Part shown: positions 1,068 to 59,750 of the stretch, piece after piece
How positions within the stretch are numbered: position 1 is the stretch's first letter
How the letters are laid out: every line of letters begins with the position of its first letter
NCBI GenBank assembly: GCA_030062745.1
Contig: CP099843.1
Coordinates: forward strand, 21,054,583 to 21,118,582
Direction: 5' to 3'
Length of the DNA stretch: 64,000 bases
Source: Capitulum mitella
Lineage: Eukaryota > Arthropoda > Thecostraca > Pollicipedomorpha > Pollicipedidae
Notes under the pieces: model-generated
Told to the model about the DNA's origin: nothing
What the model saw: only the letters and a program-made list of their open reading frames with translations
Databases searched by the model: none
Program-made: the position numbers and the translations under genes

Positions 1068-4000
1068 ATGGAGGGCGCCGTGGCCGAGGAGTTCGTGCGC
1101 CGGCTGCGGGGCCTGATCGAGCCGGACCCGCAGCTGCAGCGCGCCGGCCTCGCGTACCTGGACAGCCTCAAGGCTTCCGACAATGGCTGGCAGTTGTGCG
1201 TCGACGCCCTGCTCTCGTCGGCGCTCAACGCCGAAGAGCACGTGCAGTTCTATTGTCTGCAGGCGGTGGAGCACTTCGTCAAGACGCGTTACCCGGCCGA
1301 GGTGGAGCGGGCTGCTCCCACCGTCCGCCGCTTCCTCAGCGGCTGGGTGCAGCGGCAGGTGAGTCAGAGGCGCCATCTGGCCTGGGCAAGGGGTAGCACG
1401 TGGGGAGCGGGCGGCGCCCACCGTCAACCGCTTCCTCAGCGGCAGGTGCGTCAGTGGCGCCATGTGACCTGAGCAGGGGAAGCAGGTCACGACACTTGGT
1501 GAGCAGCATAACGACGCCAAGTGAGCAGTGTCACAACAAGGTCAGGTGAGCACTGCCATGGCATGAGGTGAGCACCATCACGTTAGGTGAACAGTGCGCT
1601 GTGCTGCGTGACCAGCGAGGTGTGTGAGTGGTGCGTTGCACTGTGAGCAGTGTCATGTTCGTTGAGCAGCGCACACTACAAGTATTGTGAGACGCATTGG
1701 TGGCGTGCTGTGTCTCGTGTTTCGCTTTAGATTCGCACGGCGATGGTCGTCAGGCCGTTTGACGTGGGATCAGAGGCCGTATTGAAGCGCGGCTGGACGC
1801 GGTGGCCGCGCCCGAGCTGAAGCGGGCGCCCGATGTCGACAGTGCCAGATGGACGGCGCCGGCGCCAAGACGTACCTGCGCAACAAGGCGGCGCAGGTGT
1901 TCGCGCTGGTGTTTGTCAGCGACTTCCCGGACCGGTGGCCGACCTTCCTGCTGGACCTGCTGGCGCTGACGGTGCAGGGCCCGCCGGCGGTCGACCTGTA
2001 CCTGCGCACCCTGCTGCAGATCGACCAGGAGGTGAGCCGACGGCCCGCCCGCCCGCCGGCCGACGCGCGGACGGGTGACCGAAACCGAAAACATTTAATG
2101 GCCAATTTAGTTCTCGAAATCACCGAGCTGGGAGGTATTCGACAGTTCCGAGCTACTGACCATGGTGTTTTGTGATTCGTGCTTAGTGCTTGCGATTAGT
2201 GCCTAGTACTTACCACGACATTAGATCATGGTGCATATACTTTCATGTGCTGCGAACATGCCTGGAAATGTTCTGTCGTATTAGATCTAATATGGTTCAG
2301 CACCCCCACTATCACTGTTTGGTTAGCAACGACTATGTCGCAGTAGGGGGTGGCTGTTGCTAAAATCGTGACCCATGCCTCACGTGCCACAGATCGTGGA
2401 TCGCGAGGTGGTACACTCCGAGCAGGAGGCTAGACGTAACACGCGCATTCGGGACGCCATGCGCGAGAAGTGCGTGCTGCAGCTGGTGGAGTCCTGGCAC
2501 GACATCCTCAACACGTATGCCAGCTCGCAGCCGCAGCTGGCCTGCATGTGCCTGGACGTGGTTGGGAAGTACGTGTCCTGGATCGACATCGGCCTGGTGA
2601 GTGTGTCCCTCGGGCGGGCTCGCTGCAGAAGCGTGACGGAGCTGTTGGGGGTGATTGGTGCTCGTCTTGGAGTCTGTGGCTGACTGGTTGTATCCAAGCG
2701 ATAGAAGGACTGTGCTGGTAATGAGTCATGCAGAATTTGGTGGCCAACTTCGTTACACTGTCGCCAGTGTTGTTTCGTCTTTGTTGGGATGTCACTTCGA
2801 CGGTTCTTGTGGGGCATCGTTGTAAACTCCGACCTGCTGGTGGTTTTATGACATGTTGGTGCTGCTTCGGCGTGCTGGCAGTGTTCTGGCCCCCTGGCGG
2901 TTTCTGAACGGCTGGTGGTGTTCTGACTCGCTGGTGGTGTTCTGACCGGCTAATAATATTCTGAACCTATTCTGACCCGCACACCCTGCCGGCAGGTGGC
3001 CAATGCCCGGTTTGTGTCTGTGTTGGTGACGCTGCTGGGGTTGGTAGACGTGCGCGAGGCAGCCGCCGACTGCATCCACGACATCACCCACAAAGGCATG
3101 GAGCCGGTGCCGAAGGTGCAGCTGGTGGAGTCTCTGTTCGCCGTGCTGGAGCAGGCGGCCGTATTTCAGCTGCTGGAGCAAGTCTCCGATCAGGTTTGTA
3201 CGGCCGACTCTTTGATCAGGTCCGTGCGGCCGAGTCTCTGGTCAGGTCCGTGCGGCCGAGTCTCTGGTCAGGTCCGTACGGCCGAGTCTCTGACTTTGTC
3301 TTTATTGCTGAGTCTGTGACCAGGTCCGTATGGCCGAGTCTCTGACCAGGTCCGTACTGCGGCCGGCACCGCGCGGCGATGGCTGTTGTTGAAGGTCCTG
3401 CCAGATGCACCGTTCATGGAAGGGTGTCGTATTCCGGTCTGTGTTACAGTGATGCCGTTTTTGGGGCCGTTTTTAGTGGAGCAGTTGTGATTTTAACGTG
3501 TGGATGGTATTAGTGGCAGTGCCGAGCCGTGTTTGTCGTTGGTGTTGTGTTCAGACGTGGCCAGCTCGAGCCGGGCGAGGAACCGTGCGGTTGGATCGCG
3601 CACCACTCTCCCCTACCTGGGGCCCTCGGACGTGACCTGACCTGACCTGACCTGACCTGACGGGGCCGGGCCGCCGTTCGCAGTCGCCAGCCGAGGACGT
3701 CGACTACCTCTGCAAGCTGGGCAGGGTGCTGAACGGCATGGGCACCGAGCTGGTGCTCTGCTACCACAAGCTGGCCAAGGCAACAACGGCGGAGGAGAGA
3801 ACCGCCGCCGCCGGCCTTGAGGCCGCCATCCGGGCCAAGATACCGCACGTGCTGGCTTTCCTCAAGTGCGACTACGACGACCCGTCGCGCAGCGTCGTCG
3901 ATTTCGCCAGGGACTACGTGCAGGTGCTCCCGGGGGGCGGGAGTTCCAGGGGCTACGTGCCGGTGCTCCACGGGGGCCGTGAGTTCCAGGGGCCAGGAGT

Positions 4001-7000
4001 TCCAGGGACTACGTGGAAGTGTTCCCGGGGGCCGGGAGGGTCCGGTCCGGTCCCGCATGGTTCGGGAGGGCGGATAGCATTTGGAAGCGCTAGAGGTACA
4101 GGTCGAACGGACGGAATTAGAGTTATCGATATAAATGTTCGAAGTAGTCGCGGCTCTTACTGCATGCATGTGTGGGCTGTGCAGGTGGCTTCTTACCTGC
4201 ATCATATTCTTTTTTGCGGAGGACCACATAAATTCCTCACATTTCCGGTTGTGCATATCACCTTGGCGACATTTGCCGTAATAGTGTGAAGATCGCCGCG
4301 AACTTTCAAAGGTGGGCGTGTTGTCACACGTCTGGCGAATTTGTCTGCAGCTGCTGAAGACAAAGCCAATGCTGATTGAGGTGGAGACGGGGCACGTCCG
4401 TGACATGGTCTACGTCATCATCCACAAACTGAAGTATGATGACGATTACGACTTCGAGGCAGTGGGCGAAGATGAAGCCATGTTTCAAGAGTACAGGTAT
4501 GTTCTGAGAATGGCAATGCTTGTTATATGTTTGATCTGAGTGGTTTGCTAGTTGACGTTTCCATCCAGCACCCGTGCTAAGCAGAGGTCGTTGCACGAGC
4601 GGGGGAGACCCGATCATTGCCAGGATAACAGCTGATTTTGTGGCGAAGATTTATCGTGCCGTCAAAAATAAGACACGAGTCGACCGTGCCGTACTGGACA
4701 TGATCTCTTCGGCAATTGTCAGTTAGCCCGCGGGACAAATGCTGAGCGCTAAGACGACTCGAACTCATCTTGCCATGATTGGGAGACCGGGTCGCTCCCA
4801 AGTGAGCTACAACTCAAGCATGATGACTGTCAGCGGGTTTGTACAAAGGACCGTTAATATTGTTCACAAGCACGTTGTTAGAAACATATTCTGTTTTTTG
4901 TGATTTCTGACAGCTCACGTTTGTATTGGCGGTGATGTTAGTGTTGGCATGATGGTTTATGGGGACCGATATTTATTTGGATTTTCCGGGAAGTTATAAC
5001 TCAGTTCAAAATACGTAACCGTATTCCCGGAGGGTTAGACGATATGGCCGATTCCCAGCAGGGGGGATTCGGCCTCCCCCGAGATCTTGAGAAGTACTCG
5101 TCTGATTTCATCGCAACAAACGGCAATTGATTTGCCATGACATAAACTACATTTGTATAAAGAAGTTTTCAAAATTTTGAAAGGGATGAATACAGGGGAC
5201 AAAAAAGTCAAAATGAGGGATATTTTTGGACTTCTCATAACTCCGATGTTTATGGACCGATTTTGATGAAATTGGCATGAATCGAGAGATTACGGATGGG
5301 ACTTGTGCCACTCTTCAATACGTTTGAAATTTTGGGAAAATTCATGGGCGTTCACAGGGGTTTGAAAGTAGGACTTGTTTTTCAAAACTGATTTAATAGA
5401 AATGTTAAAAGCGTTTTTGGGGCTTTTACTAGCCATGCCGTGCCAAAGAAGTACAAATCGTATCACAATCTTTGTATAGTGTTATCATAGACGGTGCCAG
5501 GGGCATGAAAAAGGGGGGAACGTCACATGTTCTTCAGATCAGCTGACGACCTTTGGCCTTAAATGACCTCCGGTGACCTTAGAGCCACCTGAAATAATCT
5601 CGTGGGCATTTAATATCTGGAAACTTTTCTAATCATTTGAATTCACTATTTTAAAAATTCGATTTTACAGCTGTTGTGATGTAGGGTACATGCACTGACA
5701 TTTTAGGTCATAACTCCGTGACCCGACTTGATATCAAGCTGAAACTTGGCACACAAGTGGAGGGCACCATTCTGTGTCATATTCCGTGATTGGCATTTGA
5801 AAAAATAGCGCCAAAATGTTTGCTGTAAAACCAAATTTTGACTTGACGTTGACCTGACCTTGTGAAGTGGCCTCAGATGAACAAAATTATATTTGTATGT
5901 TGCCGAGCTATTAATCTAAACATCCAAATAAAGTTTTAAGTTCTATCTTAAAAACGCTACTTTTGACAATCATTTTCCTTTTACCCTCAACAGGGCCGAA
6001 ATGGCCTGACGTGCCTCCCAAAAACGTTGCCTGGCCCCGCCGCTGAGTAAAATAGAATTACAAAATTTTGTCACAGGACATAGAAAGAATAGCGAGGAAA
6101 AGTGACCAAGTTTCGTAAAACTGCGTGAGAAACCCTGAAATTGGCAAGCAAAAAACCCTAGGGGGCGCGGATTTAGCCTCCCCCCTGCCGGGAATGGGAT
6201 AAAGCCCCTAAAATTGGTGAACTGTCCCTGGCGGTTGGTACCTCGGTTCCCTCACAGAGCAACTGAGGCTGCTGTGCGACGATTGGCGGCTCTGTGTAGG
6301 GAGCTGAAGACTGCCATCGGACTGGTCAGCTATATTTTGGCCGCATGCGTCCCCTCAGAAAGCGTCTGAAGGTTCTGTACGACAATCTGGCGGCGGTGGA
6401 CCGCGAGCTGGTGCTGCACATCACCCAGCAGTTCATCTGCTCCACGCTCGACTGCTGGAAGGCGCTGCCGATGAAGGACGTGGAGGCCGCCGTCACCATG
6501 CTGTACATGCTGGGCGAGGCGCTGCCGCCCGCCTCGGCCGGCAATTTCTTCTCGGACGACCCGGTGCGTGGCCTAGCCCGGGCTGTTGTTCTTGCGAGGT
6601 CCGGGCCATGGTGTGAACAGACACGAACTTAGTTGGCACTCCGGCCCGGAAATTCGTCCTGTTCTCAAAGCGAAATGCCGTGTCTTACAATTATCTTGTA
6701 TTTGTTATTTTTGTACTTGTTACTATGTTCTCTGATTGGGATGTGGAATAACTTTCCGTGGCAAGTACTCTGTGTTGTTTTTTGAATGACATGAAAAAGC
6801 AGAGCATGGATGAGTCACAGTTTCCTTTGTGACTGCCCTACGACTCGACTGTGACTGTGACACAACGCTGGTGGGTCATGTGTATTGTTTGTCTCACCTG
6901 TTGATTATTAGCCGGACTTGCCGCTGGGGCTGCCGCAGGCGAAAGTGTCCGTTCTTCAGACGATGATGCGCCGTCTGGTGACCTCAGACGTCGTCAGCTA

Positions 7001-10000
7001 CCCCCACCACATAGTGCCATTCCAGTACTTCGAGACCATCTCCCGCTACGAGAAGTTCTTCACGGTGGAGTCCGCTCTCCTGCCTCAGGTGAGTGTTGAT
7101 TGCGGCTACTTTTCGAGACTGTTAGACATGGTAATGTTGTCTTGCTGCCATGATGCTATCACGAAATGTGATGTTTGCCAAAAGCTCTGCGTTTGTCGCC
7201 AGAATAAATTATTGTCTTATCTCGAGCTGAGCTGTTGTCGGGCGTTAGCCTTTTACGGCAGATTGCTCGCTGTATGAGTAATGGCTGCGTGGCTGTGCGA
7301 TTGAGGTGTGGTGGTGTAACTGGTGGTTGACTGTGTGACTGACGGTTGACTGTGTGACTGATGGTTGACTGTGTGACTGGCGGCGGGACAGATGACCGAT
7401 CGTTGACCGATAACCGCCTTGCCACAGGTGCTGACCGCCTTCCTGGACGAGCGGGGCATGAACCACCCGAACGAACGAAACAAGGCCCGCGCCGTCTACC
7501 TGTTCTCACGATTCATCAAATGCCTCAAGTAATTGTTGGGCTCTGTAAAATGGGAGAGTGTGCTTAAATATGCTGCACCGCCATCCAAACGCTATGTTCT
7601 TGGATATTCCTAAAGTGAAAAATTCTGCAGTTTGTTCATACAGGCACAACAAGTGGAGTATTAAGACCATCCGAACGTAATGTGATATACATTTTCAGAG
7701 GTTGTTCTGCCATCAGATGGCTGCTCTTCAGACAGCTGGTCGTGTTTTTTTATGGATCGTGAAATTGACCCAGATTGTGGTGCCGAAGCTTCCTGTTGCG
7801 GCGCTTCTTTTCTGATCCGCCCGCCCGGAGGGCACCTTGTTCTCTCTGCCTGGTTGTCTGTTGGGTGGTTATTGGCTCCCAGGCGTGGCAGGTTGCCGCT
7901 TGGCTCGGTCCTGCTGTGCGAGTGTTCGCGCGCCGGCTCCCGCCGCCCCTGCTGAGCGCGTCCCGCCGCCGCCAGGGCTCAGATCGAGCCGTTCACGGAC
8001 ACCATCCTGGAGCACATCCGGCGGCTGCTGGCGCTGACGCCGTCCGAGACCGCGCCGCTCAACTGGGAGGACCAGCTCTACCTGTACGAGACGGTGGCCG
8101 TGCTCATCATCTCGTCGTCGGCCAACAGCGAGGTACGCCCGGTCTGCGGACGAACGTGCCGGCAAGCAGGGCCGGCGCGGGACACGTGCCGGCACGCCGG
8201 GCCGGGTCGAGGAACGTGCCGGCACGCCAGGCCGGCGCGGCACACGAACCGGCACGCCAGGCCGGCGCGGGACACGTGCCGGCACGCCAGGCCGGCGCGG
8301 GACACGTGCCGGCACGCCAGGCCGGCGCGGGACACGTGCCGGCACGCCGGGCCGGCGCGGCACACGCACCGAGTTGCCTGCGCGTGCAGGGGTGTTGGGC
8401 TGTTCATTTTTCACCAGCAGTGTTTTACCCAGGGGTTACATGTAGGAGGATGTGTCGCGTGATCATCTGTTGGGCGTAGCCAAAGCGCCTCTGAAACGAG
8501 GCTTGTACAGCGACGCTTTCGTATTAAAACCGTGTAATTTCTGGATCTGCTGTTTTGATACCAGTTTTAGCTGACTGTCTCATTGTCTCACATACTTTGT
8601 TAGATTTTAGACTCAGCTACGTCGCTAGATTTCTGGCCGCTTTCCCTGTTGACTACCATCAGTGGTTTAGTCATCGCTGGTCACACGACTTATAGCTTCC
8701 ATGATTACCGGGCCCCATAAAATGCCGGCCGAATGACTTCATGGTGTTCACGGTCTCATGGTCGTTTGCCGAAGTCCGCCTGTCCAGTGGTGATGACCGG
8801 ATGAGCTGCGGTGTGTCTGACGCGTGACCCGCTGCCTGACGGACCCACCGGTCTGTGCGGCAGCGTAAGTGCGAGCAGCTGCGCTCGCTGCTGGAGCCGG
8901 TGGTGGGCCAGGTGGGCGCGCTGGCCGCCCGGCTGGCGGCGGCGCCGGACGACTCGCCGGAGGCCGAGCAGCTGCAGCGCCAGGCGCGCCACGCCGTCGC
9001 CGTCACGGCCCGCACCACCAAGGCTTTCTCGGCCGGCCAGACGATGAAGCTGGTGGGCTGCGTGCCGCTCTACCTGCAGGCGCTGCAGATATTCCTCAAC
9101 ATGCTGCAGGTGGGCAGCCTCGGCGGCTGCCACCTCCCCCTCCCTCTGCTGTGACAGGGCAGGGCCTCGCCGTCGTGCGGTCCCTGCTAGGACAGGAACG
9201 GGACGTCGGGCTGAGTGGCGCGCGCTCGGACCATGCTGCCCGCCAGGCGTCACGGCTGCCGTCCTGAGGTCATTGCAGTGCCGTTTCACTGGCTAGGTAG
9301 CATCTGATCATGTTCATATTCATGGCCGTTTATTCAGAGGCTTGGACATGAGGCTTTCTGAGTATTCTGCGCCTAGTCGAGTTCACGTAAAAGGCCATTA
9401 CAGGTTACATGCTGCCAAAACATACATACGCCATGGACGTATGCGCGTAAAATCGTTCCGAAAGGTACGTCGTGATTTGGTCCAAGATGACGCCAGCCGT
9501 AGGTTGCTCTATTTCGTATGGTTGAGCCGGTCGTCACCCGTGGCAGGGTGTGCGTCAGTACTCGCTGGTGTATTCGGGCGTGGATTGATCTGTTTCGCGA
9601 GTCTGAACCGGACGCCTCCGCAGGGTCCACGTCAGTACCCGCTGGTGCAGTCGGGCGTGATCCAGTTCCTGCACCGACTGGTGGTCTGTCTGGGCGAAGA
9701 AGTGTTGCCATTCATCCAGACGGCGTCCGAGGCGCTGCTGCGCTCGGCAGACGTACGCAAGGTCCAAGAGTATCTTCCGCTCCTCAACCAGGTGGTGGCT
9801 AAGTACAAGGTGAGTGGAGGCCCGTAGAGTCGATGAGCCCTTCACCGCCCTTCATGGCGACGACACTGTTTTGTCGTTGGTGATATTCAGGTGGTATTCA
9901 GGAGTGCTGGGCCGCGTTTGCTGATGTTCATTAGGTTTCCGGGGATCTGGGGTGTTGCGTTGTGTCGTTCACAGGAGCAGACTGACTGCTCTCAGCCTGC

Positions 10001-21856: not shown

Positions 21857-24800
21857 ATGACACTTGAAAAGTCATTGCTTGTTTGGGTCATGGTAGCTTT
21901 TATACCTGAATCACTATCAATCAGCTATGGAAAATACAGTGAGTCATATAGCTTCTACTGCAGTATTTCTTGATGGTGTCTTGCATGGCTAGATATCCTG
22001 GGGGAAACAGGAGGGTTTAGATGCCAGTATTGATTATTTCTGATGTTTGGCATATAGCAGTGGCTTGAGAGCAACAGTCTGAAATCTTTTGCATGCACCC
22101 CATTAATTTGGGAAATATCAGGTAATGCTACCTTGCTTTGTAGCATCAGCTTGAAATATTGTGCACTCATTCTGATTGGTAGATGTGGCTGCAGGCTGTC
22201 CCCAGGGTTCCAGCATTAGGGAGATCAGATGTGTTGCACGTTTTTCCCCAAAAATGTAGCATTTTGCTAATGCATGTATAGTTTGCATGGAAAGAACCTT
22301 GGTTAAATTGAAAAGAAGGTGGAATAGTAATGCCATCCCTTTCCTTAATCCAATGCTTAAACCTTTCATTATTTTTTTAGTAAAGTAGTCTTAGTCATCT
22401 CAGGGTGATTTCTTTTTCAGAATTTGTCCTGTTTTCATTGGAAGACATCAACACTTCACCCCTGCCGCGGACAAACAAATTTGTGATTAAAAAGGATAAT
22501 GTTGTGAGTATACCCTAGTATTTCCAGGATACCTGCACCAAGGACCCAAAACTCACTACTAACAAAATGTTTTGTGGTCTTGTACACAACAGTTTGTGTT
22601 TTATCCATCATTTTAAGGCAGTGTAATTAATTTCTGATGCAAATAGATGACTGGCAGAATGAGATTAGACAGGCACCATGACAGGCATGAAAATGTGACC
22701 AGTTCAGGAAAATATGATCAGTGTTGTTGAGGCTGAGTAATCAGTAAAACACAAGTTGAGGAAAATATGATCAGTGGTGATCCTGATTTGGTAGTCAGAT
22801 CAGTTGGGCAACAGCCTGATTGAGTAATCTTGGAGTTGGGTGGGCTGTGATGGGATGGCTCTTAGCCTGCTTCACCTTGACTGGGCAACTTCACAGTCTT
22901 GACAGCAGATTCAAGGCTGCTGACTGGGCACCAAGTTGGCAGTCAGGCTTGTTCATGTAATTACTTACAATTTGATAGGTCAGTATTCCTTTCATTTTAT
23001 AAGTCACAATTTGCTTTTGAATTTCACCACATCCTTATTCAACTCAACATTTTATTGCATGTGTTGCAGCAGTTTAAGAATGCTACATCCGTTTTGAAGT
23101 GCAGTCCAAGCACCTGTGTCCAGAAAGGTGATGCCATAGGACATCTGGATGAAGTTATTAGTTCAGACTTTGTTCCTATGAATTTCTGATAGCCCTGTTT
23201 AATTCAGCTGCAGCAGAAGTTACATTCTGGTCCATTTCACAGGTAAAGTTGGCCAAGCTTTAGTGGACATCTCTTGCACTGGGACTAGTGCTCCAAGTAA
23301 TGTTTTCACAACTGACACCAGCTGTAGCTTGTGCAGACTGCTGTGTGCCAGATGCACCTGTACTGGTACTGTGTAATCTCTGACCTGTGCTGTCGAGTTC
23401 TCTGCCCCAGGTGCCCCTGTGCTGGTACTGTGTAACCCCTGACCTGTGCTACAGACCACACTGCCCCAGGTGTCCCTGTGCTGGTACTGTGTAACCCCTG
23501 ACCTGTGCTACAGACCACACTGCCCCAGGTGTCCCTGTACTGGTACTTTGTAACCCCTGACCTGTGCTACAGACCACCCTGCCCCAGTGCCCGTGTACTG
23601 GTACCATGTAATCCCTGATCTGTGCTGCAGACCACCCTGCCCCAGTGCCCGTGCACTGGTACCATGTAACCCCTGACCTGTGCTACAGACCACCCTGCCC
23701 CAGTGCCCGTGTACTGGTACCATGTAATCCCTGATCTGTGCTGCAGACCACCCTGCCCCAGTGCCCGTGTACTGGTACCGTGCAATCCCTGACCTGTGTT
23801 GCAGACCACCCTGCCCCAGTGCCTGTGTACTGGTACCGTGTAATCCCTGACCTGTGCTGCAGACTGTGCTAGCCCAGCTGACCCCGGCTAAGGGCCGGGA
23901 TGACTCGATGAACTCTCAACTCGTGAGCCACTTTTTCTGGTTGGGAGCCATGCCCCACCTGAAGCTAAGTTGCGTCAACCGCAGCGTGGATTTGCCATTC
24001 ATGATGGAGCTCTTCCATCACAACAAGATGGTGGCCTGGCGCTGCCACTTTTCTAGGAGGTGCGTTCACGTGGAGATGTCGGTGGGTTGGGTCTGAGTGC
24101 TGTAATTGTTCTGATGACATAAAATGTCGGTCTTCATACCAAGTTGTGGCTTATGAAAGTGACATAAGTTGGGGATGAAAACTTCCAAACGTGATACCGA
24201 CGTTTGTCCTGTATCCTTCACGTGCTCAAAACAGCTCAGGCAATCCGTGTGGCGGAGTCGTCTGCGCACCGTTTGCCGGATTGCGGCGATCCCCCAGTCT
24301 GGCGGCTTGCCGTGATGTCCTGGACTGACGTATTCCGGCCGTTACAGCTTGCTGTTCGACCATTCGGCCACGAAGGGCGGCCAGTGGGCTGCCGAGATCA
24401 GTCTGTCGCGGGGCTCCGGCTTCCTCTCCACGCGCGCCTCCGTCACCGACGTCCGCCACGGTGAGCCCCCCGCCGCCAGCTGCCTGGCACGGTGACGTGT
24501 CGGGTGGCGTCAGACGCCTCGGCACCCTGCTGTCGAGACCTCGCCTGGAGCGCGTGCACTGTGTGGCGCGCCTCCGGGCTGGTCTGACCGGCCGTTGCGG
24601 TGCCTGGTCGGGAGTGTAGCGGTCGGCATGCCACCCGGCGGTGTTGAACGGGCGCGGGAGTGACGGGAGTGACTCACTGCTGCGCGCCTGGTTGTCACGC
24701 CCCTGTTAGGTGTTGTAGTCTGGGGTGACGTCTGTTCCTGCGTCGCTGAAGTCACAGCTGGCGGTTCTCGTCTTCCAGCTGGCGAAGCTCGTCTGTGGTG

Positions 24801-33800: not shown

Positions 33801-36800
33801 GTGAGGTCGAGTGGTATATGTATTTTAAGTTCAACAGTGCAATCCAAATCTGCGGAGGTGTGGGTGTGATGCTACTAGAACAGTGCAATTTACATGAAGA
33901 GCATGTCGCGACCATGATGTCCTAGTTCATATCACTTTTGAGTTCATATCACAGTTCATATCGGTTTGAGCAGCATTCAGATGTCTCCGCTAAGGATTTT
34001 CCGCAGGTTCTGTTTTGTTTTCCAGGTCAATTACCGACCACCGTCGGACCAGGGAGTCAGCATTCCAACGTCGAGCAACATCTACAACGCCGACCCGAGC
34101 CGTCCGATAAACAGCGGTAGGTGGCGCTGGCGGTCGTCTCTCGGTACGTGTCCGGCGGGTGGCGGGCCGTCCAGCGTTCCACAGCTGCAGTTGGTGTCAT
34201 CAGACAGAGCTCCGGACTGTTGTCAGTGGAAGGAACGACCTAGCGCTTCACGTGAAAACGAATCCTGCCTGGTAACGTGTGCCCTTGGGGTGTTTGAAAA
34301 GGTCGTCTGCTTGCCCGGTTCGTACACTTCGGCATATCTTGTGGCGTGCGAAACTGTGGTGACGGCGGCTCGCTTGAAAGCATGTCATGTGTTTTTCTGT
34401 TTGTTTGCTATCAACAATTATAGCGTGATGATAGATTCCCACACTAATCATGCTTTGAACGATTGGATCTTTTCCCGGTCTTGATTTGAAACTTGTCTAC
34501 GTGTTTTGCTGCGTGTCACGTCTGACCGCGATAGGGTTTGAATCCGTCGATTTTGCACGCCGTGCATCCTCATCGATAGTATACTTTTTGTCACCCATTA
34601 ATGACGCATAGTCGTGGCCGCATGACTTGGCTTATGGCACGTTATTGCACCCTTTGCAGACTGTAGTAGTCCGTTCAGATACTCGGTACTCTTGCTCATG
34701 GTTGACGCGATCCTTCTAGATTGACATTGTGACAGGGCGGGGGTAAAACACAGCTATGGACGGCGCAGAGTGCCAGCTCTGTGTCCTTATTGTGAGCTCT
34801 GTGCCGGGACCTGATGTATACTACGGAATCTGTCACTTTTGTTTGTCGTGATTATGCCGTGTACCATAACGGACGCGATCATGATATTGTTTGTTCTTTT
34901 CAAGCACTGTAATGGTATGTTAGCTGTGTATAGGGCTAATGCTATTTTGTCTCCTTCAACCGTGATTGGTATATTCTAATAATTTATGTGTTCTTTGTAT
35001 GGAATCATTGTCAATCATGTTGCAAGTTCGGCATGTGGGTTTTGGTGTCCTTCATCAGGCCTGTTGACCAATGCCTCATGCCCGCTGGAGTCAGTCAGAT
35101 CCTTTAACACCTGCTGACCTGCGTTCCGCCTCCTCAGACCTGCTGACCTGCGTCCCGCCTCCTCAGACCTGCTGACCTGTTGTGTCCCGCCTCCTCAGGC
35201 CTGTTAATAGTGCACGAGGCCAGCCGTGTGTCGGGCCGCTTTAAGGCATGCGCCGGCCGGACCAACCGGTCGTCGTGCGGCTGTACCGTCGCCGCCGAGT
35301 TCTCGACGGACGTCAACGACTCGGACTGTCGCCGATACGTGAGCCGGGCACGGGAACACCGAGAGGGGAACACTCAGAGGAGGAACACTCGGAGTGAGGA
35401 ACATTCAGAATGGGCAACTCTCAGAAGAGGAACAGTCAGAGGGGAATACTCAGAGGAAACACTCAGAGGAAAACACTCAGAAGGGGAACACTCAGAAGGG
35501 GAATACTCACAAGAAAATACTCGGGGAACACTTAGAGAGGAACACTCAGATGGGAAATACTCAGGGCGAAGACACTTAGCGGGGGACACAAAGAGGGGAA
35601 GACTCAAGAAAGCACTCAAAGGGGAAACACTCAGAGGGAACACTCAGAGAAGGAGCACTCAGAGGGGAACACTCAGAGGGGAACAATCAGTGGAGGAACA
35701 TTCGGGACTGGGTCCCGGAGGGGCATTGCCGGGTCTGGCCTGAGGGGTCTGGTCTGACGGTATTTGTTATACATTTTTATATAAATTTAATTCCAGTGGT
35801 TTGATAGATTGGTGGTAGGGATCGGAGCTCGTGCTAAGCAAAGCTTGTGAAGACTCCGGCTCCTACACCCGATCGAGCAGTTCCAGGTAACAGCTGATTT
35901 GTGGCGACAGTTGAACGTGCCGCCAAGGGTGCGACACGACCATTTAGTAGTCAGCTTGACGACGTTGGCCGGTTGCCAACTGACCTGCGGCCCAAGTATC
36001 GAGCGCCGGTAGAACTCGAACCCGTCTTACAGGGACGGGGAGACCAGCTTGGTGCCAAACGAGTTACCGATCTTGGTCCGAGGATGACGTGAATGCACAG
36101 TCCGCGTCATCTATCCCCCGATTACGAACTTAGCAAACAGGAAAAAATATGCAGGATGCCGTCAGCGGGTTGCTGCCGGCAGTGTCATCGTGCAACATTC
36201 CTCTCTGCTGTCTAGCAGGCGTCTGCATACCACACAAGCGTTGTACGCTCTGCGACAGCGGCGCGTTTGAGTCCAGCGTGATGCGGGGTGCTCCGCGTAC
36301 TACCGAGGTGCTGCGCCCTGCCGCCAGGTGCCCCAGATCTCGTGGCCGGCCAAGCTGCGCCTGACAATGAGCATCCGTGAGTCGGGACGTCCCAGCCGGC
36401 AGCTCCGAGCGCCCATGTACGTCATCATCACAGAGCTCAACAACCGCTCCTCCTGGTACAACCACGGTGAGTCCCTCTGAGGCCAACAACCGCTCAACTT
36501 GGTACAACCACGGTGAGTCCTTCTGAGGTCAACAACCGCCCCTCCTGATACAACTACGGCGAATCCTTCTCAGGTCAGCAACCGCTCCTCCTGGTGCAAC
36601 CAAACAGTGCCTCTGAATTCGACAACCGCTGTGTGGTACAAAGTACGAATTGTTACAAAGTCTAAAGTGGTCCGCCTGAAATCATAAACCACTCCTCGTG
36701 GTATAAACGGGCGGGTGAGTTATTGCTCCACAGGGCTCAACAGCTATGATCCAGACTTAATCCCTACATATACTTATTCCTGTTCACCTAGAGTGAATCT

Positions 36801-39800
36801 CTCAAAGCTGCGTGAAAACCCTCGGGTTCCCTACTAATGCTAAAAGAGCCGTGCGGACTAGATTGCCACAGTTCTCTGGACCTCGTCACGTTAGCTTGCT
36901 GCATTAGGTTATTTTTGTTCAGCGAAGGAATGCATCAGAGGCGTATTTGGTATTGATGGGCCCATATCTAATCATTTTTAGCACGCTTGAGTGATGGAGA
37001 GTACTTACGATCCACTTGACTCTTGGTGCGACTCTTGAATTTTTCCCTTCTTTTGTGGGTTACGTAACGAATAGAACATCGACAGCCAAAGTGTATGTCC
37101 CAGAAACAGTCCAAAAAAGCGGTCTGTGGAGGGAGCGTCTTGTGACCATCGGCAGGAAAAAGCGATGTCGGGATCGTCTTTCTTTTGCCGCATTCTGCTC
37201 TTGCTTGTTGTTATCTTGTTATCTGCATTGCTTTTTTTTCGCACAATGGCAGACTCTGCGGAATAAGACACTCACCCATATGAACTGAGGGGTAATCCTT
37301 GGTACCGCTGGCCACAGCCGCGTCTTCCCACCGGCATTATTTCTTTTTACGTCTCGACCGTGGTCTGTTGTAAGCGCGACTCTGCGTTTGTTTTCCCTGC
37401 TCGACCTGCGTTTTACTGGGCTCTCTGTTTTCGTGTGTTTGTTTTATCCATGTATCAGATTGGTATCAAATATTAATCCATGATCTACTGTGATTCGTAA
37501 AATATACTGACTGACTTTTTCCATACCTGTCATTGTTGTGAACTTCCCAGACGTGGGCTCACTCTGTGTCGGGCCTTCGTGACGAAATGATGTGCGCCAA
37601 CAGTGGCGAATTGATCATACAGAGGGGGCGGGATCGGGTGCCCGGGCCCCGCTTAGGCCCGCATTGTTTTCTTGTTTAATAGCACTGACGCAGCGAGCGA
37701 GGTGTCATGCCATACTTCATTTGCGGAAATGCGTACCTGTGATCAATAGGAGTTTTCTTAATGAAATCCATTGCATGTCGTCTTACCAGCAGGCGGTTAT
37801 CGTATGACTTCAGTTTTCACTGAGCCTCCCCCCTTAAAATCCCGTCTCCGGCTCTGTGCGAGGGAGCTGCGGAGCTCCCAGCCCAGCCAAGGTCGATGCC
37901 CTGTGCAATACTCTCACAATCTTCAGTCGATGTATTCAGTATTTATATGCATTCGATCAGATATAAGTTAGTGGTTGAAAGTCACCAGCAGTGTCGTTTG
38001 AAAGCCTTAGTTAAAAGGTATTTCTTCATTTCCATTTGAGTTGTATGGGCAACTGAGGAAGTGATCAAAAGATACCTTAAAAGATCAAGACCGAAGGAAA
38101 AAATTCATCAGACCAAACAGGAATTTTATGAAATGGCGAACCTCGATAAAGAAGGGAAAAGCGGGGAATGAAACTTCTAGAAGAGGCGTCACAAACTGGC
38201 GGCCATAGGGGATCCTCAGTACGTATGTAGCTATTCAGGATCGCAGGAGTAAGTGAAACATGCCATGTATTCAGTATAACTTTCATAAACTGTATCCTTT
38301 TCTTCGGCCCTCGACATTCCAGGTATTGTCATATTTGTAAATGGTGTGTAGAATGTAGAATCATTGTTTACGGACGAACGAATCACAGTTGGCGAATTTT
38401 ATATCTTAGCGTTTTCGTGCGCCTTAAGTTTTCTGCTGTATTATGTCTTGCTTCGTCAACCTTAATTCTTCGACTCCTATTCCTTTACGCCTTTTGCCCT
38501 TCAGCTGAGTCCTTGCTTTGAGCGCAGCTCCGGAAGGGCTGCAGCGCCCGTTCCGCTCTTTGTTGCATCCCTTTCATTACCTTCCATTCATCTGGTGTCT
38601 CACGCTTGCGCTCAGCGCTCTGTAGGCTGGACGCCTGCTGTCTTATCCCATACTGTCTGCTGTCTTATCGGCATCGTTAGTCCCAATCCTTGTTTGACTT
38701 TCATCGTGCTCTGATGTCTGTTAATGTCATTTTTACACATCTTTTCCGTGTGAGAAGTAGCTTTAGTGTGATGAGGATGCACATGTGTGTGTACAGTACA
38801 ATGAATATGCTCATTTCAAGAAATGTGATGTTCTATTACAATCGCCACGGGGAGATTGGCCCCATTTTCGGGGATCCACACGGCCCAGCTCTGACCGTTG
38901 TGCCCGACTGGCGGACAGTGTTGCTGGACGCCAACCTGGCGTACATCTACAGCCGGAACCTGTCTCCCTGGGACCGCCAGCTAGTGGACCCCCAGAGGAT
39001 CCGCCTGCTCATGACTGGCACCGGACTCTACCACTTCCGCATACGCGTGGTCGAGCACACCTCCTACAACATGTTCTACGACGACCTGATGGTACGGTGT
39101 CACACTGCTGTTGCTCCAGTTTGCTTGTTTCGTACAGTTTAGTTTGACGGATGTCTGCATAATGGTGGTTACATTAAGTGCCCTTTTAGCACCATGCTTT
39201 GATGCTCCGTTATGCGCAATGCTTGCGCGGTCTGTGGTAAAGCGAGCCATGCGATCCCACATATTTGTTTTTAGTTGTTCTGCGCGAATAATTCGTGCAA
39301 AGGGAACAGCTCCAGTAGTTTGTAGAAGTATCAAGGCCATGTAGACAAAGTCAGGTTGGTCTCATGCTTTGTTTAAATAGAATTCCTCCTATCTTGAATC
39401 CGTTAATTCCGATAACTAGATCAGCATTTCGTTGGCTGATGCATTGATGCCATTGTGGGTGCTTTTTGTGAACAAGAGAACGACTGAGCTCAAGTCTGTT
39501 AGGTGCAGAGATCCCAGCTGGGATAAGCCCTCAGCACGGCGCGGACCCTGTTCATCCGCGACGCCTCACCTCTTCAGTGCTATTGTGACTTAACGCTGCG
39601 CACCTGGCCATCTCACTCGGCTGGGTCAGCACGTGGTGTACTCACCCCTGGTCTGCCGGTCCTCAGATGTACGTGGTGGCGTCGCGGCTGAAGTCGCAGG
39701 TGCAGCACGTGGTGTACTCACCCCTGGCCTGCCGGTTCTCAGATGTACGTGGTGGCGTCGCGGCTGAAGTCGCAGGTGCAGCACGTGGTGTACTCACCTC

Positions 39801-39974
39801 TTGTCTGCCGGTTCTCAGGTGTACGTGGTGGCGTCGCGGCTGAAGTCGCAGGTGCAGCACGTGGTGTACCCGGTGGTGGGCATCACGCTGATCGTCATGA
39901 TGTTTGTCGTGTTCGAGTATTACCATCAGCGCTACGTGGACGCGGCGGACATCTCGGAGAGCGGTGAGGAGTAG
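21857..39974 (+). CDS. CATSPERB: CatSper channel auxiliary subunit beta, 20 coding exons
   Basis: Single-pass membrane protein whose large extracellular region forms part of the canopy over the pore of the sperm flagellar CatSper Ca2+ channel. Exons: 21857-21938, 22421-22503, 23863-24059, 24348-24460, 25372-25605, 25981-26132, 27044-27119, 27827-28008, 29302-29439, 30147-30293, 30605-30670, 31211-31318, 31815-31932, 32562-32707, 33419-33619, 34026-34116, 35199-35338, 36328-36466, 38889-39091, 39819-39974. Phases agree throughout (923 aa; human 1116 aa). Identification rests on NYRPPSDQGVSIP and YNADPSRPI (exon 16), SGRFKACA with a CGC and a DC (exon 17), ITELNNR..W (exon 18), IYASVDGG.NF (exon 10) and LYHFRIRV (exon 19), all recalled from vertebrate CATSPERB. 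Residues 1-22 look like a signal peptide; about 887-904 are a membrane segment, followed by a 19-residue tail. Intron 11 has a GC donor (30671). The first two exons, the exon 14 end and the exon 19 start are least certain. Confidence 0.88.
22640..22890 (+). repeat. Short degenerate repeats in CATSPERB intron 2
   Basis: GGAAAATATGATCAGTG-type and GAxTGGGCAACxTCACAG-type phrases recur several times in this CpG-poor intron. The rest of the intron to about 23330 looks unique. A 58-base exon-like stretch at 23070-23127 is out of phase with the next exon and was not used. Confidence 0.4.
23340..23872 (+). repeat. 58-bp tandem array containing the CATSPERB exon 3 acceptor
   Basis: About nine units of 58 bp. 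Each ends in CCTGACCTGTGCTGCAG or CCTGACCTGTGCTACAG followed by AC. The final unit supplies the real 3' splice site (AG at 23861-23862; exon begins ACTGTGCTAGCC). Earlier units present the same pyrimidine-poor acceptor followed by ACCACCCTGCCCC. GTACTGGTACCATG in each unit is another landmark. Confidence 0.9.
26440..26945 (+). repeat. ~64-bp degenerate array in CATSPERB intron 6
   Basis: About eight copies of a unit with the landmarks TGGGTCTGATTCA, GGGGTGTG, ACCAGACC and CTGTTGTGGTCCGG. It fills most of the intron between exons 6 and 7 but stops about 100 bases before exon 7. Confidence 0.85.
27555..27850 (+). repeat. Tandem array containing the CATSPERB exon 8 acceptor and first codons
   Basis: Five to six degenerate units of 45-55 bp with the order TCCTCAG, ACGAGGTGGTG, (CTG)n, GTGACGTCACGTGACG. 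The last is the true acceptor (AG at 27825-27826) and exon start, encoding DEVVLLLL. Clear upstream copies lie near 27565, 27618, 27731 and 27770. Two units contain the palindrome TGACGTCA (27713-27720, 27803-27810). Confidence 0.85.
28570..29282 (+). repeat. 36-bp minisatellite in CATSPERB intron 8
   Basis: About 20 units of the form TCTGTCCGTGGTTGTCTGAC plus GGCTCAGGCCCTGCGT. The array is degenerate on the left and homogeneous between 28880 and 29270, and stops about 20 bases before the exon 9 acceptor. Open frames across it are repeat artefacts. Between exon 8 and the array (28009-28570) I see only unique sequence. Confidence 0.92.
29455..29790 (+). repeat. Minisatellite starting next to the CATSPERB exon 9 donor
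   Basis: Units of about 24-30 bp with GGCTGAGGGTGCTGTGCTGG begin about 20 bases after the donor (GT at 29440) and decay rightwards into GATGATTGC-containing longer units. The unit's CTGCTGG/GCTGGGGAC phrase resembles the exon end (GCTACTGCTGGCTGGACAG), so it may have started from the exon edge. Confidence 0.75.
30960..31080 (+). repeat. Purine-rich (GGAGAGA-like) tract in CATSPERB intron 11
   Basis: Nearly pure A/G on the + strand for over 100 bases, rich in GAGAGA and AGAAGA. It lies upstream of the exon 12 acceptor. Confidence 0.8.
32755..33270 (+). repeat. ~55-60-bp tandem array in CATSPERB intron 14
   Basis: Eight to nine copies with the landmarks CACCAACAGGGGATCGTACC, TGCACAGACTGT and CTGACCGAGACAGG. 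It starts about 50 bases after the exon 14 donor and ends about 150 bases before exon 15. Confidence 0.9.
34520..35095. other. Unique part of CATSPERB intron 16
   Basis: AT-balanced unique sequence with no open frame or repeat that I can recognise. Confidence 0.5.
35095..35200 (+). repeat. Repeated acceptor upstream of CATSPERB exon 17
   Basis: CCGCCTCCTCAG followed by ACCTGCTGACCTG occurs twice, with a shorter CCTGCTGACCTG copy at the left, before the real CCGCCTCCTCAG (AG at 35197-35198) and exon start GCCTGTTAATAG. Each full unit (about 31-34 bp) carries a complete 3' splice site. Confidence 0.85.
35345..35712 (+). repeat. Purine-rich minisatellite after CATSPERB exon 17
   Basis: About 25 units of 12-16 bp of the GGGGAACACTCAGAGA type, starting about 10 bases after the donor (GT at 35339). 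The strand is strongly purine-biased. Open frames through it are artefacts. Confidence 0.93.
35827..36070 (-). mobile_element. tRNA-derived SINE family A, copy 2
   Basis: On the minus strand it has a tRNA-like head (GTAACTCGTTTGGCACC, with GACGGGTTCGAGTTC as the B box). The body matches copy 1 (4570-4812) in the same orientation and copy 3 (61660-61965) inverted. Shared + strand marks are CTCGTGCTAAGCAAAGC, AACAGCTGATTTGTGGCGA and GTGCCGCCAAGGGTGCGACA. It sits in CATSPERB intron 17. Confidence 0.6.
36430..36655 (+). repeat. 46-bp tandem array made of the CATSPERB exon 18 end plus donor
   Basis: The unit is the last 28 coding bases (AACAACCGCTCCTCCTGG then TACAACCACG) with the donor GTGAGTCC and about 10 intron bases. 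The first unit is the real junction (GT at 36467). The second keeps a perfect CACG/GTGAGTCC donor, the third has a GC-type donor (GCGAATCC), and later units decay. Confidence 0.92.
36656..38888 (+). other. CATSPERB intron 18, unique part
   Basis: The longest CATSPERB intron (2.4 kb in total). I see no array or recognisable mobile element after 36655. An open frame (38690-39142) continues upstream of the chosen exon 19 start, so the exon could begin earlier if a small unrecognised exon in this intron corrected the phase. Confidence 0.5.
39630..39865 (+). repeat. 76-bp triplication of the CATSPERB last-exon acceptor and start
   Basis: Three copies of acceptor plus coding sequence begin at 39667, 39743 and 39819, exactly 76 bp apart. 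Each has a TCAG acceptor, then RTGTACGTGGTGGCGTCGCG. A partial copy of the unit end precedes the first. Only the third continues into the membrane segment and stop codon in frame. Copies 1 and 2 diverge after GTGGTGTAC into ...TCACCCCTGGCCTGCCGG. The near-identity suggests recent expansion. Confidence 0.95.
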
Positions 39975-45778: not shown

Positions 45779-45779
45779 G

Positions 45780-54985: not shown

Positions 54986-55026
<41 letters not shown>

Positions 55027-58000: not shown

Positions 58001-59719
58001 TGCCCGACCTCAGAGCGGTGTCACAGAACTTGAGATGCATGCATACGTTGAACGGAACGTTGACTTTCATGAGGTATAGGAGATACATTATACATGGCTG
58101 CATCCGCAAATTCGTATATCGGCTGTTTCATGTTAGGTGTCACACTTCGCATGATATCCCAGCATGAACGTCGAACAAGGACTACAGCGTAGGCACGACG
58201 CCTATCGAGAAATGCGTTCCTAGCTTCCGCTGTGGGTATCGCATGGGAAGCACGTATTTCCCCTGACCACCATCTCCTATGCAGACATTGGATTCATACC
58301 TCAAACATAAAGAGTGCAGCATGCGATTACCAGTCTGCCGGTGTTTGAGTTGTTTTTGTTTTAAGGAGCGTTGAGCCGGCTAACTGTCCGACTAAGGCTC
58401 CACCTGATCTGACTGCCCGCCGCTGTAACTGAGGCGGCGCCACCAACGGGTTGCTGGACGCTGGCGTGCTCCTGGGTCGGGAGAATTTAACGTTATCCCT
58501 ATGGCGATACATGGAGGGGAAGGACCCAAAAATGTCGTCTTCCTCCGTTAGCATGTCTTATTCCCTCGTGGATCGAGTACGTGGTACCGCCATTCCACAG
58601 AGGCCGTGTGTGCTGTTGAGGGTGTTAGTGTTCATGGAAGCGTATGAGTTACATGACGGATCGCCTGACCTGACCGGACCTGACTTGTCTGGCCTGACTT
58701 GACCTGATCTGACCTGACTTGCTGTCGCCGTCCACAGAGGCGAACCGGGTGTTTGCGCTACGGACAGTATGTGGGTGACTGCCCACCTATCCTAACCTGA
58801 CCTGACCTGACCTGACGTCGCCGTCCACAGAGGCGGGTCGGGTGTTCGCGTTCCGGGCCGTGTGCGAGTCGGGCGCCGAGGACGCGCTCAGCCGGATGGG
58901 CCAGCTGATGAACGAGAGTCACGCCTCCTGCCGGGACCTGTACCAGTGCAGCCACGAGCTGCTCGACGCCATCTGCCGTCTGTCGGAGGGCGTGGCGTAC
59001 GGAGCACGGCTTACCGGCGCCGGGTGAGACTCTCTCCCCCTCCCCCCATCCGCCGCCGCCGCCGCGGCGAAGACAGGTCGGCATCGGCTGACGGCCGGCA
59101 ATCTGTTGCGCTGACGCTCGAACGGCCAGCGCCCCGAGGTCGGATCTTGTGGCTGGTTTGCACTGATGCCAGTCCAGAGTCGAACTGCGTTTGGTGACGA
59201 ATTTAATGAGGCCTTAGTCTTTGATAGATATGCTTTAGTGGGAAGATCATGTTTTAGACCCGTTTGGACCGCTATGATACAAAAATCGTAAAGTTGTGTG
59301 TTACCGGGGAAAGTTTTGAGGGTACAGCGACCTTGAAATATTTACTAGGGTCTGTTGACGACTCATTCCAGTCACATTTCGGTTACATCATACAAGTATC
59401 AGGATTATCCTAGTCCAGAATGCGGTTTGGATGCTCTCAAGCAGTATATCGAATATGCTGTTGAAAACTAGAAAAGTTGTGTGATCCCGTTTGGACCAAT
59501 GATGGCCGCGTTTCACTTGTAACAGGCTCCTCGGTTCCCGGTTTTCCCGACAGATGGGGCGGCTGCGCGGTGGCTCTGGTGCCGGGAGAACGCGTCGACG
59601 AGTACATCTCTAAACTGAAGGCCGAGTTTTACGCGCGTCGTCCGAACGCCGAGGGGCTCGACCTGGACAAGGTGGTGTTCCGGACCGAGCCGGGCGACGG
59701 TGCTGCCATCTTCAAATAA
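48805..59719 (+). CDS. GALK2: N-acetylgalactosamine kinase (galactokinase 2), 9 coding exons
   Basis: Cytosolic GHMP-family kinase that phosphorylates GalNAc, and less well galactose, at C1 with ATP in amino-sugar salvage. Exons: 48805-48941, 49724-49891, 50432-50630, 52144-52252, 52953-53110, 53408-53548, 57109-57223, 58831-59023, 59554-59719. All are GT-AG and in phase, giving 461 aa (human 458). The galactokinase signature [15 protein letters not shown] spans the exon 1/2 junction (residues 46-60). The ATP loop [11 protein letters not shown] is at about 144-154. GTEGGGMDQ carries the catalytic Asp at about 195. LTGAGWGGC spans exons 8/9 (about 403-411). CGYS after the signature, in place of the GALK1 sequence, and the family N-terminus point to GALK2 rather than GALK1. 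The final codons include FK-stop, with an AATAAA overlapping the stop codon (59715-59720). No inactivating change was seen. Confidence 0.96.
50631..52143 (+). other. GALK2 intron 3
   Basis: A 1.5-kb intron of unique sequence with no array or mobile element that I can recognise, ending in a clear pyrimidine-rich acceptor (TTTGTTTGTCTCCAG). Confidence 0.6.
52550..52880 (+). repeat. ~55-bp degenerate array in GALK2 intron 4
   Basis: About six diverged units with the landmarks GACCCAAATCTG, GTGGTCTGTA/GATGGCCTGTA, GTGTAGA and AGTCTGG. It ends about 70 bases before the exon 5 acceptor. Confidence 0.75.
53641..54320 (+). mobile_element. Possible third piggyBac-like element, left end
   Basis: TTAACCCTCC at 53641 is followed by sequence containing GCCATAACTCTGCGGA and AGGTCACTGACCAAGGTCA. 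These recall internal motifs of the 55698-56916 element. No matching right end was located, so extent and identity are uncertain. Confidence 0.3.
54991..55022. repeat. (AT)n microsatellite
   Basis: An uninterrupted run of about 16 AT units in GALK2 intron 6. Confidence 0.97.
55698..56916 (-). mobile_element. piggyBac-like non-autonomous element, copy B (intact ends)
   Basis: A 1.22-kb element with TTAA at both outer edges (55698-55701 and 56913-56916). Inside these lie terminal inverted repeats CCCTATTCCCGG on the left and CCGGGAATAGGG on the right. CCCT-type ends with a TTAA target are characteristic of the piggyBac superfamily. Each end has a G-run/C-run hairpin next to CCGGGAAT. It is inverted relative to copy A (5015-6202), with high similarity along the whole length. 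No transposase-size frame is present. It lies in GALK2 intron 6. Confidence 0.85.
57635..57840 (+). repeat. ~200-bp dispersed repeat, copy 1
   Basis: Matches 60430-60632 in the same orientation at roughly 80 percent by eye. Shared blocks include GATAGTAGCCACATTCAAA, GTTCTTTTGCGA, CCAGCAAAGT, TATCACAGTATCAG and CAAGACCCATTTTA. It lies in GALK2 intron 7. Family unknown. Confidence 0.75.
58660..58862 (+). repeat. Duplicated GALK2 exon 8 acceptor with CCTGA leader
   Basis: A (CCTGA)n-rich leader, GTCGCCGTCCACAG and the first ~35 exon bases occur twice. The first copy (acceptor AG at 58736-58737) reads [13 protein letters not shown] and then a stop. The second (AG at 58829-58830) is the real exon 8 ([13 protein letters not shown]...). 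A GTATGT after the first copy's CTACGGACA could serve as a donor, making a roughly 28-base cryptic exon. Confidence 0.88.
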
Positions 59720-59750
59720 ATTGGTGCTGCCATCGTTAAATAGATGGCGC
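59695..59750 (+). repeat. Tandem duplication of the GALK2 stop-codon region
   Basis: GGTGCTGCCATCTTCAAATAA (last codons and stop) is followed directly by TGGTGCTGCCATCGTTAAATAG, a ~25-bp duplicate that would read GAAIVK and stop. It is the coding 3' end counterpart of the splice-site duplications elsewhere in the window. Confidence 0.8.

Follow-up and report, generated by a model that had tools for sequence, protein, structure and literature searches.

Tandem repeats across exon-intron boundaries of the barnacle Capitulum mitella: probable minisatellites of the lancelet "mirage" type

About 6% of sampled exon edges in the barnacle Capitulum mitella bear repeats of the type known from lancelets as "mirage" minisatellites, in which tandem units span the exon-intron boundary. 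We put at roughly 0.8 the probability that the repeats at exon edges are just this, that is, ordinary short tandem duplications of noncoding DNA, with an exon edge caught by chance in a minority of the units; the genome is rich in minisatellites. The reading is supported by the presence of such arrays on other chromosomes, by the retention of splice dinucleotides, and by the lack of any junction excess in the sampled genes. Two observations stand against it: array ends are distributed non-uniformly in introns, whereas simple random placement predicts otherwise, and the retention of the splice dinucleotides is slightly above that of other base pairs, although marginally so.

The probable cause would be slippage or unequal exchange, by which some tens of bases are duplicated. 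Where a junction falls inside the duplicated segment, the mRNA would stay unchanged while the coding-side junction remains in use; selection would thus retain that copy, and only the intron-side copies, presumably near-neutral, would multiply and decay.

Materials and Methods

The window is the whole analysed stretch of 64,000 nucleotides. Its gene models were rebuilt as XPOT (16 exons), CATSPERB (20), and GALK2 (9), with 85 splice edges in all; the identities of the three genes were checked with Pfam and PDB, and the last exon of XPOT was not found when this gene was rebuilt in the window. Scans for tRNA genes and against Rfam gave no matches. The full sample comprised 307 splice edges (154 donors and 153 acceptors) of 16 genes on nine contigs, with 222 edges in 13 genes (ten of the myosin family) coming from eight contigs other than that of the window.

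An edge passed the ungapped test if the 24 bases spanning its junction recurred, with 17 matches or more, up to 600 bp away on its intron side. The gapped test used a score cut-off of 38 or more and was controlled by 1,700 draws from equal lengths of other introns. Array placement was compared with a null model within each array's host intron; a null model over the whole window gave a strong apparent enrichment but was confounded by the preference of arrays for introns. In the analysis of dinucleotide retention, copies were selected without counting the dinucleotide itself, which avoids selection bias.

For MYO6, SMPD2, and THOC3, exons were retained from a score of about 13 upward, the specificity of the early gene finder being low, and at the ten myosin loci exons were kept if they scored above 9 or had a myosin match. 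Five MYO6, SMPD2, and THOC3 edges were hand-corrected with the help of protein sequences; a retrained gene finder, whose training set included them, gave the identical edges. The following were left out of the counts: L024 donor 737, L029 acceptor 5313, L025 acceptor 4384, L025 exon 3678-3708, L027 acceptor 4203, C9 donor 16649, the C9 intron after 11158, and C3 exon 3009-3121. THOC3 is assigned from two exons only, with a PF25174 match of 162.6 bits that is below the cut-off of 305; PF03372 is the sole profile match supporting the SMPD2-like gene, and MYO6 has a myosin-head match. The names MYO6 and SMPD2 are otherwise putative.

Results

The preliminary description had listed at least ten exon edges in the window with a repeated splice site, and all ten (10/10) are confirmed as lying in local tandem duplications by the ungapped and gapped tests. 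Nine of them pass the ungapped test, and the remaining one, the acceptor of XPOT exon 12, stands out plainly in a gapped alignment. The gapped score of 38 was reached at 9/85 window edges and in 0/1,700 control draws, and therefore splice consensus does not account for the repeats. The edges, together with an eleventh case and a duplicated stop codon, are as follows.

1298..1463, + strand: donor of XPOT exon 1 (junction after 1358), copied at 1399-1463; 58/65 aligned bases identical
3181..3357, + strand: XPOT exon 4 donor (after 3193), 26-bp array of 6.8 copies; TRF, ungapped and gapped tests
3907..4038, + strand: donor of XPOT exon 5 (after 3923), copied at 3946-3983 and 4002-4038 in a repeat of 39 bp; 33/37 each, TRF
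6246..6422, + strand: XPOT exon 7 acceptor (before 6359), decayed copy at 6246-6318; 53/72, AG of the copy lost
9523..9659, + strand: XPOT exon 12 acceptor (before 9624) and its copy at 9523-9582; 46/56, AG of the copy retained
23359..23889, + strand: CATSPERB exon 3 acceptor (before 23863), 58-bp array; TRF
27559..27848, + strand: CATSPERB exon 8 acceptor (before 27827), degenerate array with a unit of about 49 bp; TRF, gapped alignment
35109..35203, + strand: CATSPERB exon 17 acceptor (before 35199), 29-bp array; TRF, ungapped and gapped tests
36433..36616, + strand: CATSPERB exon 18 donor (after 36466), 46-bp array; TRF, gapped alignment
39627..39869, + strand: acceptor of CATSPERB exon 20 (before 39819), array with a 76-bp unit that takes in 51 bp of the exon; two copies 67/70, TRF
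58713..58869, + strand: GALK2 exon 8 acceptor (before 58831) and its copy at 58713-58776; 48/59
59699..59746, + strand: GALK2 stop codon duplication, 24-bp unit in two copies; 20/24 identical

The eleventh case, the decayed XPOT exon 7 acceptor, had been overlooked, as had the arrays that end just short of exons.

At the named edges and at the GALK2 stop codon the copies sit on the non-coding side, in agreement with the earlier claim that copies are added on the intron side. That the outermost unit is the functional one needs nothing beyond coding constraint. Protein alignment suggests that the coding-side junction is the copy normally used: with the exon-side acceptors, the GALK2 protein aligns without gaps to 2A2C across exons 7/8, and the CATSPERB protein has a gap-free alignment across exons 19/20, although the stretch concerned scores a weak 11.5 bits. 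The duplication of the GALK2 stop codon, also described earlier, was found again with a period of 24, TAA standing in 59699-59722 and TAG in 59723-59746.

Over the whole sample, a junction-spanning local repeat was detected by the ungapped test at 19/307 edges, namely 12/154 donors and 7/153 acceptors. Ten of these repeats were found among the 222 edges outside the window, in 7/13 genes and on five other contigs, so the phenomenon is not local. The rate at which each gene's own introns are duplicated predicts 31.9 such edges instead of 19 (P(<=) 0.005), 21.0 instead of 10 in the non-window genes (P(<=) = 0.003), and 10.9 instead of 9 in the window alone. In the window, 11.7% of 1,500 random intron positions are duplicated, and the 85 edges are not special by comparison; a window tally of 10/85 edges was dropped as a sign of enrichment, since intron positions are duplicated equally often. 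Copies seldom extend far into exons: inside the window exons, they were found at 6/85 edges 20 bp from the junction and at 1/85 at 60 bp. The preliminary description had proposed a genome-wide process seeded and enriched at exon edges. Recurrence on five other contigs, at both donors and acceptors, supports it in part, but seeding is unsupported and enrichment absent in these 16 genes, where junctions are duplicated less than intron DNA. Donors outside the window are affected at 8/111 and acceptors at 2/111 edges (Fisher 0.10); the difference, which stood at 8/97 versus 0/96 before the C3 and C9 loci were included, weakened with more data.

The placement of array ends follows a different pattern. 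Among all genes, 21/43 arrays either overlap an exon boundary or have an end no more than 25 bp from it, versus 3.7-8.7 by chance; the corresponding figures are 12/17 versus 1.9-4.3 in the window and 9/26 versus 1.8-4.3 outside it, with P ranging from below 0.0002 to 0.013 depending on the null. Flush placement is strongest in the window, which had been chosen for that look. Four arrays of the window abut exons without crossing them.

8154..8366, + strand: 30-bp array at XPOT exon 10, non-crossing, starting 21 bp past the donor; TRF, placement analysis
28623..29277, + strand: array ending 24 bp upstream of CATSPERB exon 9; TRF, placement analysis
29461..29648, + strand: array starting 21 bp downstream of the CATSPERB exon 9 donor; TRF, placement analysis
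35352..35700, + strand: array starting 13 bp downstream of the CATSPERB exon 17 donor; TRF, placement analysis

Ten arrays in all come as close as 8-24 bp to an exon without reaching it, with no residual similarity beyond. The possibility that abutting arrays are decayed junction-spanning ones was rejected, the mean flank similarity being 0.39 versus 0.41-0.53 in other groups of flanks.

An unlikely explanation of this placement is that once-short introns were lengthened by transposon insertions, which drove the two exons apart on a single side, so that no seeding would be needed. On one side the gap next to the flush arrays is indeed small, whereas on the opposite side it mostly measures hundreds of bases, and a dispersed 1.2-kb repeat occurs in two long introns; however, every intron of the window is at least 286 bp long, so that short ancestral introns are an assumption. 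This explanation concerns array placement alone and is compatible with the mirage reading.

It is rather doubtful that the minisatellites are anchored at exon edges, with arrays preferentially starting or ending no more than about 25 bp from splice signals, junctions setting the start of duplication through transcription, R-loops, or repair, and selection thinning those arrays that copy a junction. Were it true, introns would grow from their ends, which would supply spare splice sites.

Seeding proper, in which replication or repair at junctions, or transcription-linked breaks, would start the duplications at exon edges, appears distinctly improbable. The flush array ends favor it, as does the density of repeats in the window, which falls from 0.12-0.24 in the first 400 bp next to exons to 0.03-0.04 at more than 600 bp; repeats of lancelet PGBD5 are likewise described as adjoining splice sites (PMC3902484). 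Yet, besides the deficit of duplicated junctions, repeat coverage in all genes rises from 0.09-0.11 at 12-50 bp from exons to 0.16-0.21 at 200-600 bp, and the non-window genes show no drop far from exons (0.21 at 1,000-4,000 bp). Outside the window, moreover, arrays that actually cross an edge number 4/26 versus 1.8-2.9 with overlap allowed (P 0.10-0.32), the 50-bp count is 9 versus 3.5-5.7 expected (P 0.002-0.08), and the window was selected for this very appearance.

At the sequence level, the arrays do hold strong copies of splice sites: GT or AG is retained in 91/114 intron-side copies at 20 edges and lost in 23/114, and 26 copies equal or exceed the annotated site in score. The copy of the XPOT exon 1 donor retains CAG|GTGCGT, and splicing there would lengthen the reading frame by 87 nt with no stop; at XPOT exon 4, the annotated donor has 3.4 bits versus 8.8 bits for five downstream GT copies. 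AG is kept in 7/8 copies of the CATSPERB exon 3 acceptor, with a premature stop upon use of any of the seven. An identical donor lies at +46 from that of CATSPERB exon 18, and its use would read through an in-frame stop; the phase of the exon 18 donor is incompatible with the acceptor placed for exon 19. This mismatch and the weak annotated donor of XPOT exon 4 are caveats to the choice of the coding-side junction.

Such copies might be retained for a function, serving splicing control as decoys or alternative sites or giving rise to new introns, and 13 of them would give in-frame open extensions (8 from a single MYO6 array). We regard this as very unlikely, since 66 of the 91 copies with GT or AG lead to a premature stop, the dinucleotides are retained at 0.788 versus 0.692 for other base pairs, a marginal excess (P 0.04; 0.055-0.087 with stricter controls), and lancelet mirages reportedly leave regular splicing undisturbed (PMC3087553, PMC3902484). 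No purging of decoy splice sites was observed, the dinucleotides being retained slightly more than other pairs. Finally, an assembly artefact from mis-joined reads or haplotypes is hardly credible despite a 500-N gap in the window assembly and some non-window copies identical over 24/24 bases, because most of the 114 copies have diverged from the functional junction, down to 15/24 bases as in aged duplications, and the pattern recurs across several contigs.

Discussion

Mirage repeats would thus extend beyond lancelets and may occur wherever introns are rich in minisatellites. Genomes of this kind can serve as test beds for how the splicing machinery passes over strong splice-site copies close by, and also for the tandem-duplication route to new introns. 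Gene predictors, in turn, may choose the wrong splice-site copy.

Several described systems resemble the barnacle arrays in part. Minisatellites of C. elegans were considered and set aside, as in the cited account they lie near alternative exons and do not span edges (PMC4039745). In the case described in PMC4974935 the duplicated segment crosses an intron-exon boundary, as here, but a new intron arose at the duplication, whereas the barnacle arrays are known only within existing introns. In human duplicated genes, minisatellite expansion across exon-intron boundaries can alter splicing; these repeats are described as recent, primate-specific, and located in segmental duplications, with new introns supported by transcripts (PMC2812944), in contrast to the diverged copies within existing introns of the barnacle.

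The closest match is found in lancelets, and the preliminary statement that no named system behaves in this manner was wrong. "Mirage" minisatellites across exon-intron boundaries have been described there in Adh3, the globins BflGb6 and BflGb9, troponin C, and PGBD5 (PMC3087553, PMC3902484). Instability of copy number between alleles or cells counts among the traits of mirages. The cited reports differ from our data in the host, a cephalochordate instead of a barnacle, in which 19/307 edges are affected, and in unit size, which is given as tens to about 160 bp versus 24 to about 103 bp here. The two systems are alike in that tandem units span exon-intron boundaries at both donors and acceptors, and that AG or GT is present in many, although not all, of the copies (PMC3087553), as in 91/114 of ours.

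Results

The entire window was read, its tandem repeats were located, and three genes of the forward strand were rebuilt:

1068-12350, + strand, XPOT, 16 exons (the last exon was not found)
21857-39974, + strand, CATSPERB, 20 exons
48805-59719, + strand, GALK2, 9 exons

XPOT was identified by a match to Exportin-T (PF19282) and comparison with S. pombe exportin-T, GALK2 by matches to galactokinase (PF10509) and N-acetylgalactosamine kinase (2A2C), and CATSPERB by a match to CatSper beta (7EEB). The rebuilt XPOT and GALK2 contain no internal stops, and CATSPERB exons 1-18 form an open frame once both edges of exon 15 are corrected. The phases of CATSPERB exons 18 and 19 do not join (donor of phase 1 versus the acceptor at 38821), and a small exon was probably missed in intron 36467-38820. 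An apparent GC-AG intron (donor GCAAGT) follows exon 11 at position 30670.

Several other features of the window were recorded. Two tracts, 1-1000 (0 CpG) and 21001-23000 (5 CpG, containing CATSPERB exons 1 and 2), are nearly devoid of CpG, with observed/expected ratios of 0.00-0.07 versus approximately 0.95 for the window. A 1.2-kb interspersed repeat, probably a transposable element, occurs at 5013-6204 (XPOT intron 6) and, in opposite orientation and 81% identical, at 55697-56918 (GALK2 intron 6); a second dispersed pair (57625-57842 and 60414-60625) shares 81% identity over 220 bp. By eye, 45600-45780 resembles a tRNA-derived short interspersed element (GTTCGAGTCC, box-B-like); no tRNA was reported there by ARAGORN or Rfam.

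The preliminary description named ten exon edges (single donor or acceptor junctions) at which the splice site and adjoining exon bases are repeated on the intron side, and this observation is correct and careful. A near copy of the 24 junction bases lies at most 600 bp away on the intron side at 9 of 85 edges, and the copy at the tenth, XPOT exon 12, is visible when gaps are allowed. A gapped score of at least 38 was reached at 9/85 edges versus none of 1,700 draws from equal lengths of other introns. An older, decayed copy (53/72 identical) lies upstream of XPOT exon 7, and the GALK2 stop codon falls within a two-copy 24-bp repeat (20/24 identical). The donors of XPOT exons 10 and 15 (scores 32 and 34) were taken as chance matches, their longer alignments being gapped and low (33 and 31).

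Contig C5, which holds the window, belongs to an assembly of 477,042,490 bases in 16 contigs. Outside it we sampled 200 kb from C1 and C2 and twelve shorter pieces spanning ten myosin loci, located with PF00063. A small gene finder, for which the window served as the first training set and which was later retrained, placed the exons; rows failing inspection were left out, and adjacent exons agree in reading phase for most of those retained. The 13 further genes are MYO6-like, SMPD2-like, THOC3, and the ten myosin-family loci. Junction-spanning repeats were found at 10 of their 222 edges, in seven genes on C1, C2, C6, C9, and C14. With the three window genes included, approximately one splice edge in sixteen carries such a repeat in this sample.

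The introns of the window genes are full of repeats, and junctions do not rise above this background. In the ungapped test, 12.3% (copies downstream) and 11.8% (copies upstream) of positions in the same introns pass, versus the 9/85 edges; in the gapped test, 11.7% of 1,500 random intron positions pass versus 10.6% of the window edges. Shuffled sequence passes at 0.24% (window, one direction), 0.29% (C1 block), and 0.69% (C2 block); thus the repeats themselves are far above chance, although one or two edges among the 307 counted over all 16 genes may be chance matches. The enrichment at junctions that had been proposed is not borne out: the outside genes have 10 such edges versus 21.0 expected at each gene's intron rate (P(<=) 0.003), and all 16 genes have 19/307 versus 31.9 (P(<=) 0.005), both P values being approximate, as the binomial model takes edges as independent. 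Genes vary widely in repeat density: two myosin loci, at 0.7% of intron positions, are the lowest, MYO6 reaches 24%, and the single THOC3 intron 40%.

Distances from array ends to exons, by contrast, show a surplus of arrays flush with splice signals. In the window, 17 arrays of 60 bp or more are intronic. An exon edge is crossed by seven of them, and 12 either cross one or have an end no more than 25 bp from it, versus 1.9-4.3 by random placement inside the same introns. Outside the window 9/26 arrays cross an edge or end within this limit, versus 1.8 expected with exons off limits (P < 0.0002) or 4.3 with a 51-bp overlap allowed (P=0.013). This outside excess is weaker at 50 bp (9 versus 3.5-5.7, P 0.002-0.08), and edge crossing alone, with overlap allowed, gives no clear excess (4 versus 1.8-2.9, P 0.10-0.32). 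A gap of 8-24 bp separates ten arrays from the exon, and one of 26-50 bp only two; no repeat traces were found beyond those ten arrays in the flanking sequence. Over all genes, repeat coverage is lower beside exons (0.09 at 12-25 bp versus 0.21 at 300-400 bp). In the window alone it drops past 400 bp (0.24 at 300-400 bp, 0.04 beyond 600 bp); outside there is no drop with distance (0.21 at 1,000-4,000 bp).

Intron-side copies were counted at 20 edges (the 19 and XPOT exon 12), requiring at least 15 matching bases in 24. There are 114 copies, of which 91 keep GT or AG and 26 equal or exceed the score of the annotated site. If the 91 were used, 66 are predicted to run into a premature stop, 12 to shift the frame without meeting a stop in the part examined, and 13 to extend the open frame in phase. 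These 13 comprise single copies at XPOT exons 1, 4, and 5, a pair in a C2 myosin gene, and eight in one MYO6 array. The MYO6 array, with a 36-bp unit that keeps the exon's frame, lies at the MYO6-like exon 16 donor (C2 minus-strand block L012-L021, block coordinate 25519; edge placed by an exon score of 15.7 and matching phase). Each of its eight downstream GT-keeping copies would lengthen the open frame by 36 to 312 nt, which makes the array a candidate source of in-frame protein extensions of variable length.

Splice dinucleotides are lost no faster than other bases and, if anything, slightly more slowly (retention 0.788 versus 0.692, P 0.04; 0.055-0.087 with stricter controls). Homology, in alignments of the exon-side version only, favours the exon-side junction: GALK2 so built shows no gap to 2A2C across exons 7/8, CATSPERB none across exons 19/20 (a weak stretch, 11.5 bits), and at the XPOT exon 4/5 joint no additional residues are present in the S. 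pombe relative.

Discussion

The proposal that duplication is seeded at exon edges throughout the genome fails its own main test, since junctions are not enriched in the genes sampled; what stands partly in its favour is the surplus of arrays ending flush with exons. That placement could also arise, without seeding, if short introns grew by insertions on one side only. The flush arrays, together with the share of about one splice edge in sixteen, are the remaining points worth a second look.

Tandem duplication of short segments, inferred to proceed by slippage or unequal exchange, is frequent in the non-coding DNA of the sampled genes, and a duplication straddling a junction would be harmless provided that the coding-side copy stays in use. 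Most likely, selection then holds that copy while the others drift, which explains why the outermost unit is the functional one with no directional mechanism required. That junctions are duplicated less often than intron positions is consistent with mild selection against such duplications.

Related cases are described in human (PMC2812944) and potato (PMC4974935), and no closer parallel than these and the lancelet repeats appeared among the matches listed from open-licence PMC papers. The preliminary description knew of no named system; however, in lancelet, minisatellites of the same anatomy already bear the name "mirages" and, according to PMC3087553 and PMC3902484, they span both kinds of boundary, have partly lost AG/GT, and in some cases abut splice sites.
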